A DNA stretch of 38,026 nucleotides from a bacterium (lineage in GTDB: Bacteria; Patescibacteriota; Minisyncoccia; Phycocordibacterales; UBA2100), in NCBI GenBank assembly GCA_030648265.1, contig JAUSHX010000017.1:1-38026 (forward strand), given 5' to 3'. The notes below the pieces were generated by a model. It saw only the letters and a list, made by a program, of their open reading frames with translations, was not told the DNA's origin and searched no databases. Below are positions 35,594 through 37,161 of this stretch, one piece after another. The position numbers and the translations under genes were made by a program. How positions within the stretch are numbered: the stretch's first letter is position 1; every line of letters starts with the position of its first letter.

Positions 35594-35850
35594 TGGAGCC
35601 GATGTCCGGGATTGAACCGGAGACCTCGTTCTTCGCTTATACCTCCGTTTCAACTTTCTATTATCGGAGGGCTAGACTGTATCTTTTCGCCAGAGGCGAA
35701 CCCTTGTCAGTCGTTCGGGCGTTTGACGCCACGGTCTTGCCCTTAGAAAGGGTATTAACCGTTATTCGGGATTCATGCGCATGTTGCCACGCGCATGGGC
35801 AGGGCCTGCGACCCACCAAGAACGTGCTCTACCAACTGAGCTACATCGGC
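35594..35850 (-). tRNA. tRNA-Thr(GGT) interrupted by a group I intron (intron 35634-35814); CCA encoded
   Basis: exon 1 GCCGATGTAGCTCAGTTGGTAGAGCACGTTCTTGGT, exon 2 AAGAACGAGGTCTCCGGTTCAATCCCGGACATCGGCTCCA; joined they form a canonical 76-nt tRNA-Thr. Confidence 0.93.
35634..35814 (-). other. 181-nt ORF-less group I intron
   Basis: U at 5' splice site, terminal omega-G; P1 GGU/GCC, P2 ATGCGC/GCGCAT, P4 ACGGT/ACCGT, P5 CCCTT/AAGGG, P6 GGCG/CGCC, P7 GACTG/CAGTC with AAGATACAGTC S-like element, P8 TTCGCC/GGCGAA, P9 CCTCCG/CGGAGG. Confidence 0.88.
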
Positions 35851-36408: not shown

Positions 36409-36483
36409 CGCGGCCGACCGGATTTGAACCGGCGATCTATCCCGTGACAGGGGATTATGTTAACCAGGCTACACCACGGCCGC
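36409..36483 (-). tRNA. tRNA-Asp(GTC)
   Basis: acceptor GCGGCCG/CGGCCGC, anticodon loop CTGTCAC, T-loop TTCAAAT, discriminator G; CCA not encoded. Confidence 0.94.
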
Positions 36484-37161
36484 ATCTGGATACAGGGTTT
36501 TAATTGCCTTCCGAAAAATCTTATACTTCCTTGGCAAGAATAAACCTGTAGCAGGCACAGTATCGTACATCAAATGAAACAAGGCAAGGCTGTCGCGATG
36601 GCTCAATAAGATATCAAAGCCATGTCTTTTGTTTCTTATTGTTCCGCGAGAGATTCCGTGTTGTTTTAGCAGGCTAAGGAGTTCTTCAAGAAATAATCTT
36701 GACCCGCATGTAAATATGCTCTGGAATACGGGTCTCGGCCTTTTTCGATCAGCACATTTCAGAAAAGCAAAATAAACACATCCGTCTCCGTCGAAATAAC
36801 CACGCACGAAATCTCTGCAATACGTGTTAGGAATTTGTGGGAGCCTCAATGTAAGACTTTTTGCGGGAGTCATACCAATACGCAGCAAATCATCAAACAT
36901 TTCCCTGCTTCCAAGTTGAAGCTGATAACTTGTAGATCGCTTACTAGTTTTGTACATGCGCTTCCCGATTTTGTGATTCGATCCAAGCACAGCTTTCACG
37001 TTCGCTAGCAATTCTCGATCGTTGCTATAAAAAGCGATAAAATATGCCCCGCGTCGATTCTTAATCATGTTGCCGTCAGCTGTAAAGAACCCCAATACAT
37101 ATGCCATTTCTCTACTCCACGTTTTAAAGAAATTCCTTCGCAAATTTCTAGGTATTGGCAT
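36469..37161 (-). CDS. free-standing LAGLIDADG homing endonuclease-like protein
   Basis: two LAGLIDADG-type motifs: MAYVLGFFTADGNM and FVRGYFDGDGCV, roughly 105-110 residues apart. Confidence 0.88.
   Translation of the reverse strand: MPIPRNLRRNFFKTWSREMAYVLGFFTADGNMIKNRRGAYFIAFYSNDRELLANVKAVLGSNHKIGKRMYKTSKRSTSYQLQLGSREMFDDLLRIGMTPAKSLTLRLPQIPNTYCRDFVRGYFDGDGCVYFAFLKCADRKRPRPVFQSIFTCGSRLFLEELLSLLKQHGISRGTIRNKRHGFDILLSHRDSLALFHLMYDTVPATGLFLPRKYKIFRKAIKTLYPDAAVV

Follow-up and report, generated by a model that had tools for sequence, protein, structure and literature searches.

A minimal group I intron predicted to self-splice in the tRNA-Thr(GGU) gene of Patescibacteria, and its link to integrative elements that split the same tRNA

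An interrupted tRNA-Thr(GGU) gene

The stretch of DNA analyzed here (hereafter the window: positions 1 to 38,026, in 38,026 nucleotides, of contig JAUSHX010000017.1, assembly GCA_030648265.1) comes from a bacterium of the Patescibacteriota and carries a tRNA-Thr(GGU) gene whose anticodon loop is interrupted by 181 nt. The whole gene lies at 35594-35850 on the minus strand, as do all its parts described below, and corresponds to a precursor of 257 nt. The 5' exon (35815-35850) provides tRNA nucleotides 1-36 and ends with the anticodon GGU; the insert (35634-35814) stands between tRNA positions 36 and 37; and the 3' exon (35594-35633) provides nucleotides 37-76, with the CCA encoded. An earlier reading of the letters alone (the sequence-only reading) had proposed that this is a minimal group I intron. 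When the minus strand was read again, its coordinates and insert length were reproduced exactly, as were the U36 that precedes the insert, the G that ends it and the absence of an open reading frame (ORF), there being no room for an intron-encoded protein.

ARAGORN, run on the window, reported only tRNAs for Ala, Asp and Met, and so missed the unspliced tRNA-Thr(GGU). Once the exons are joined, the resulting 76-nt tRNA is called as tRNA-Thr(GGU). A member of the same genus, G011, has an intronless gene that matches both exons with 100% identity and places the break at 36|37, and in other members of the genus the exons are likewise adjacent at exactly that point. A further indication comes from 14 intronless loci of relatives, all of which give an intact tRNA-Thr(GGU) in ARAGORN. 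Because these intronless relatives show the exons joined there, the splice sites are fixed at 36|37. The ARAGORN call and the G011 allele thus agree with the earlier proposal that the tRNA is split after position 36 and restored by joining. Among 98 related genomes the insert occupies the same place in 20 full-length copies, the window's own included.

Group I fold and detection by curated models

The 20 copies, the window's and 19 homologues, were aligned, and a structure was written by hand from the group I plan. The alignment is invariant at P4, P7, J8/7 and the terminal G, and variable in the paired arms elsewhere. The fold has 50 pairs, with 93.8% of cells paired and changes on both sides at 30 pairs; its covariation score is 0.439, compared with 0.157 +/- 0.011 in shuffles. 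In a slid control, with partners moved by 1-3 columns, 31-43% of cells pair, a comparison biased toward the fold because the structure was drawn partly from the same sequences. The covariation counts are not accounted for by that bias.

In P1, the internal guide GCC (35798-35800) faces the exon GGU (35815-35817) in all 20 copies, with a U-G wobble between U36 and the G of the guide at the 5' splice site. P2 is a covarying 10-bp hairpin (35774-35797) with the GNRA loop GCAA, and 114 of 115 introns have a GNRA motif in their L2 region. P3 (CCC at 35768-35770 with GGG at 35701-35703), paired in every copy and with one compensatory change, encloses P4-P6. Here P4 (35758-35762 with 35731-35735) is invariant, P5 inside it (35749-35752 with 35740-35743) has compensatory changes at all four pairs, and the P6 hairpin (35727-35730 with 35718-35721) has them at three of four. 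P7 (GACUG at 35708-35712 with CAGUC at 35675-35679), the predicted guanosine-binding helix, is the same in 20/20 copies and, being invariant, is supported by position and conservation only. It encloses P8 (35696-35700 with 35686-35690), in which all five pairs show compensatory changes. Both pairs of the 2-bp P9.0 (35671-35672 with 35635-35636) covary, changing from G-C to A-U and from C-G to U-A, and are paired in all copies; P9 lies at 35665-35670 with 35642-35647, and the terminal omega-G (35634, G217) is invariant. The P3-P9 core that marks a group I intron, with P7 crossing P3, is therefore present. The helices drawn in the sequence-only reading (P1, P2 and P4-P9, with P7 as GACUG/CAGUC) all stand, but that reading had left out P3 and P9.0. 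The short P5 and the P2 with its GNRA motif would fit subgroup IC3, that of bacterial tRNA introns, which makes it a candidate subgroup only.

Together, the empty sites and the covarying core of the 20 copies support the earlier proposal, and we consider it very probable that the insert is a minimal, ORF-less group I intron, predicted to be self-splicing. The catalytic steps that we infer from the fold would be as follows. The exon end GGU in the anticodon loop would pair with the guide GCC to form P1, with the wobble at the splice site; a guanosine held in P7 would attack after U36; and the freed 5' exon would attack after omega-G, placed by P9.0, joining nucleotide 36 to 37 and producing the cell's only known tRNA-Thr(GGU).

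Some observations weigh against this assignment. Exon pairing in P1 amounts to 3 bp only, and the Rfam group I model RF00028 gave no match in a 451-nt stretch of the window, either at the gathering threshold or at E<=1, nor in the 20 intron copies at E<=10. The Infernal check suggested by the sequence-only reading thus gave no curated match, whereas the homologue alignment has a full covarying group I core. Because the homologues show that core, we take the missing match to be a limit of the model. RF00028 does find two Patescibacteria tRNA-Leu(UAA) introns (45-47 bits) and the 16S intron of the window's genome (74.5 bits), while a family model that we built, R1, reaches the same two tRNA-Leu(UAA) introns weakly (24-25 bits). 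These results on other introns imply that the Thr(GGU) intron is a divergent relative missed by the curated detector. Such introns would be small natural group I ribozymes outside the Rfam model, useful for minimal-ribozyme work.

Some matches proved to be something else. The RF00028 match in the window's genome was rejected as the Thr intron, since it is the intron of the 16S rRNA gene (L001:1329-1566, G000:C18); just upstream of that group I intron, the 16S gene has a further insert with an ORF resembling a LAGLIDADG protein. A weak R1 match in G233 was also a 16S intron, and the weak R1 matches in G051 and G089-C9 seemed to be due to chance or to an RNase P gene.

If the insert instead stayed in the RNA, the tRNA gene would be broken and the ACC and ACU codons would be read by another tRNA. 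In principle, a tRNA-Thr(UGU) with an unmodified position 34 could serve all four ACN codons. In the genome of the window (943 kb, 97.7% complete), 43 tRNA genes score above the Rfam cut-off; the other Thr tRNA genes have the anticodons CGU, UGU and UGU, so two such tRNAs are present. That splicing is so far a prediction and that RF00028 gives no match also leave room for a broken gene. We nevertheless regard it as extremely improbable. The exons are intact and identical to those of an intronless congener; the catalytic core is invariant and the loops are free to vary, the pattern expected of a ribozyme under purifying selection; and a search of the tRNA genes of this nearly complete genome turned up no second Thr(GGU) gene. 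The interrupted gene is the only known tRNA-Thr(GGU) of the cell, the reader of ACC/ACU codons. The sequence-only reading had named three findings that would jointly speak against it; one of them, the failure to match a group I model, did occur, whereas another, a second intact tRNA-Thr(GGU) gene, was searched for in the genome and did not turn up.

Range of the intron family and its native locus

R1 was searched in close relatives, in a sample of the phylum and in a sample of the class consisting of 392 genomes drawn without regard to intron or integrase. Strong matches were found in 21 of the 98 close relatives, in 18 of 389 genomes across the phylum and in about 13% of the class genomes (53 matches at E<1e-30). 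A pattern scan of GTDB yielded at least 80 loci; among the matches listed, all are from Patescibacteria (Kaiser-, Komeili-, Yanofsky-, Moran-, Wolfe-, Nomura-, Peregrini-, Uhr- and Saccharibacteria, and other Patescibacteria) save one from Niastella populi, of the Bacteroidota. Wherever both junctions were visible in the listed GTDB loci (78/78), the intron sits in tRNA-Thr(GGU) at 36|37. The junction search required TGGT; four copies that it missed were read by eye and have the same site. This site is shared by all of the approximately 119 distinct evaluable introns, all but one of them in Patescibacteria. Family members are 175-246 nt long, and no homing endonuclease gene was found inside them, the longest ORF on either strand being 60 amino acids.

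The survey of tRNA-Thr genes in the candidate phyla radiation (CPR) that the sequence-only reading had recommended therefore reveals not a one-off but a large family fixed at Thr(GGU) 36|37. One consequence is that about 13% of the sampled class genomes do have, in interrupted form, a tRNA gene that standard tools call missing. Because these tools overlook the interrupted gene, the entry for Thr(GGU) is likely to be in error in tRNA inventories of Patescibacteria that are compiled automatically.

The single copy outside the phylum (N. populi NZ_LWBP01000002.1, L104/L283) is an intron-bearing tRNA-Thr(GGU) accompanied by a Patescibacteria-type integrase, and is present besides the genome's own intronless Thr(GGU). 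No other intron-bearing copy was found in a 120-genome sample of the Niastella family, and this one may be a contaminant.

Group I introns of bacterial tRNAs also occur in Leu(UAA) of cyanobacteria and in Arg(CCU). Others have been described in fMet and Ile(CAU) (PMC8450103). The Thr(GGU) intron resembles them in being small, in lying in the anticodon loop after a U and in having a P1-P9 core. It differs in its host tRNA and in being too divergent for RF00028, which does find the Leu(UAA)-type introns that Patescibacteria also hold. Introns of CPR rRNA genes are common and group I-like, and they frequently code for LAGLIDADG endonucleases (Tsurumaki et al. 2024, PMC11270868). They occur in the same bacteria, including one in the 16S rRNA of the window's genome, whereas the Thr(GGU) intron lies in a tRNA and encodes no endonuclease. 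The sequence-only reading did not recognize a Thr(GGU) 36/37 site. The host tRNA does differ from those of the known tRNA introns, but the title of a 2025 preprint (Nakagawa et al. 2025, cited in PMC12641178) points to an earlier report of a tRNA insertion site in Patescibacteria. To judge from that title, the preprint may well describe this Thr(GGU) family, and the intron alone should thus not be claimed as new.

In the window the tRNA order is Met, Asp, Thr, and it is the same in G001, G042, L094 and L081; the intronless G018 has the same order from Asp onward. Elsewhere in the genus another tRNA-Thr (CGU where called) follows intron-bearing and intronless genes alike. This shared order implies that the window's intron is in a native gene and that gain or loss happened in situ. 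For the introns of the genus, a single clade is not rejected (p 0.365), so that horizontal transfer within it finds no support.

Between tRNA-Met and tRNA-Asp lies a free-standing LAGLIDADG_3 gene (36469-37161, minus strand), the 3' end of which overlaps tRNA-Asp by 15 nt. Its endonuclease might cut intronless tRNA-Thr(GGU) genes, with the ORF-less intron riding on the repair, an arrangement known as collaborative homing and described for phages (PMC3984707). The gene is about 0.6 kb upstream of tRNA-Thr, and the family is at the same locus in G001, G042, L094, L081 and the intronless G018. Yet the gene directly adjoins tRNA-Asp, not tRNA-Thr; its G042 version consists of two pieces; and only a very small number of the 108 scanned intron loci have it nearby. 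We rejected this explanation, which we judge improbable, as the gene is too rarely present at intron loci.

Two loci deserve separate mention. In G116 (L050/L062, C4:342917-343408), neighboring Thr(GGU) (36|37) and Leu(UAA) genes each have their own group I intron, and these two introns lie about 100 nt apart. At the end of a contig of G094 (L014:1768-1825), a second tRNA-Thr 5' half with the same intron start directly follows the intron-bearing gene; running off the contig, it is either a tandem copy or an assembly artefact.

Integrative elements that split tRNA-Thr(GGU)

At the Niastella locus and a number of Patescibacteria loci, 74-90 nt beyond the 3' splice site is the start of a tyrosine recombinase, from the same family in each case. 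Such an adjoining integrase was found at 10 of 115 distinct intron loci, nine of which also have a split tRNA 5' half upstream, and in these 10 the intron-bearing gene is at the left end of integrative elements. The layout is clearest in G059 (L205:842-18060). Its left end begins with nucleotides 1-38 of the host tRNA-Thr(GGU), followed after 122 nt by a complete intron-bearing tRNA-Thr(GGU) and the integrase; after about 17 kb, the right end consists of nucleotides 31-75 of an intronless tRNA-Thr(GGU), and the outer halves join to an intact tRNA-Thr(GGU). The same layout, with halves that rejoin to an intact tRNA, is seen in G136 (L271; 8.6 kb, intron-bearing spare) and G149 (L273; 15.9 kb, intronless spare), and the right end of an element is seen in G539 (L279). 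A second tyrosine recombinase lies at the right end of all three fully visible elements (G059, G136 and G149). The sequence common to both ends is only (A/T)TGGTAA, about 7-8 bp, in the anticodon loop.

These elements interrupt the host tRNA-Thr(GGU) within its anticodon loop and bring along a full replacement, which would rescue the decoding of ACC/ACU. Classical tRNA-integrating islands restore their tRNA by a duplicated 3' end. The present elements resemble known tRNA-integrating elements in their crossover in the core of the anticodon loop and in the tyrosine integrase beside the attachment site. They depart from the classical islands in a shared sequence of only about 7-8 bp, in leaving the host tRNA split, with no 3' end restored at attL and its halves apart at both ends, and in carrying a complete, separate replacement tRNA, often with an intron. 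The link between intron-bearing spares and integrative elements that split tRNA-Thr(GGU) is what is new here; nothing on it was found in the open-access literature, in which no search was aimed at it.

Because five of the 10 integrase-adjoining loci were found through the intron pattern itself (ASCERTAINMENT), the class sample gives the fairer view of the association. The integrase occurs in five of its 392 genomes, and all five are among the 53 with the intron (P 4e-5). Of these integrases, three adjoin the intron gene; contig ends split a fourth, and the fifth (G713) lies at a tRNA-Lys. In the phylum sample the intron is in one of three genomes with a close integrase. On the intron tree the element-borne copies are scattered, and a single element-borne clade was rejected (p 0.02-0.04). 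Elements may contribute to the spread of the intron.

The intron breaks the 7-bp crossover core after its fifth base, and so could hide the spare tRNA from the integrase. This suggests, tentatively, that the intron acts as a shield of the attachment site: the element destroys the tRNA at (A/T)TGGTAA, and a spare with an intron in that core would restore translation and escape recombination. Solitary introns of native loci, the window's among them, would then be descendants or donors of element traffic. A shield of this kind would account for the constancy of the site, the patchy distribution of the intron and the absence of a homing gene, and we think it possible, although the odds are somewhat against it. 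Two observations count against tying the intron to elements: no integrative element was found at the native locus near the window's copy, and the spares in G333, G149, G328 and G397 are intronless, so the intron is not obligatory for the elements.

The alternative is that the intron is old and mostly vertical in native tRNA-Thr(GGU) genes, with repeated loss, and that elements merely captured intron-bearing spares and had no role in its spread. This history, to which we give only slightly less than an even chance, agrees with the 105 of 115 intron loci without an adjacent integrase, with the native tRNA order that the window has in common with the intronless G018, with the unrejected single clade of the genus and with the spares that lack an intron. 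It sits less easily with the intron's presence in all five integrase genomes of the unbiased class sample, though one of those integrases is at tRNA-Lys, with the scatter of element copies on the intron tree and with the Bacteroidota copy beside an integrase. If the link to elements is real, it would mean a new role for a ribozyme, protecting a rescue gene from the recombinase of its own carrier element, and would let introns spread without a homing endonuclease.

The cargo of G136 includes AbiU2-type HEPN and SIR2-like genes, which are defence-like, and that of G059 includes Fic and RHS genes. In G445 (L045, C25), an intron-bearing gene that has no integrase is preceded, about 37-130 nt upstream, by degraded remnants of a tRNA-Thr 5' half; these are possibly the fossil left end of an element.
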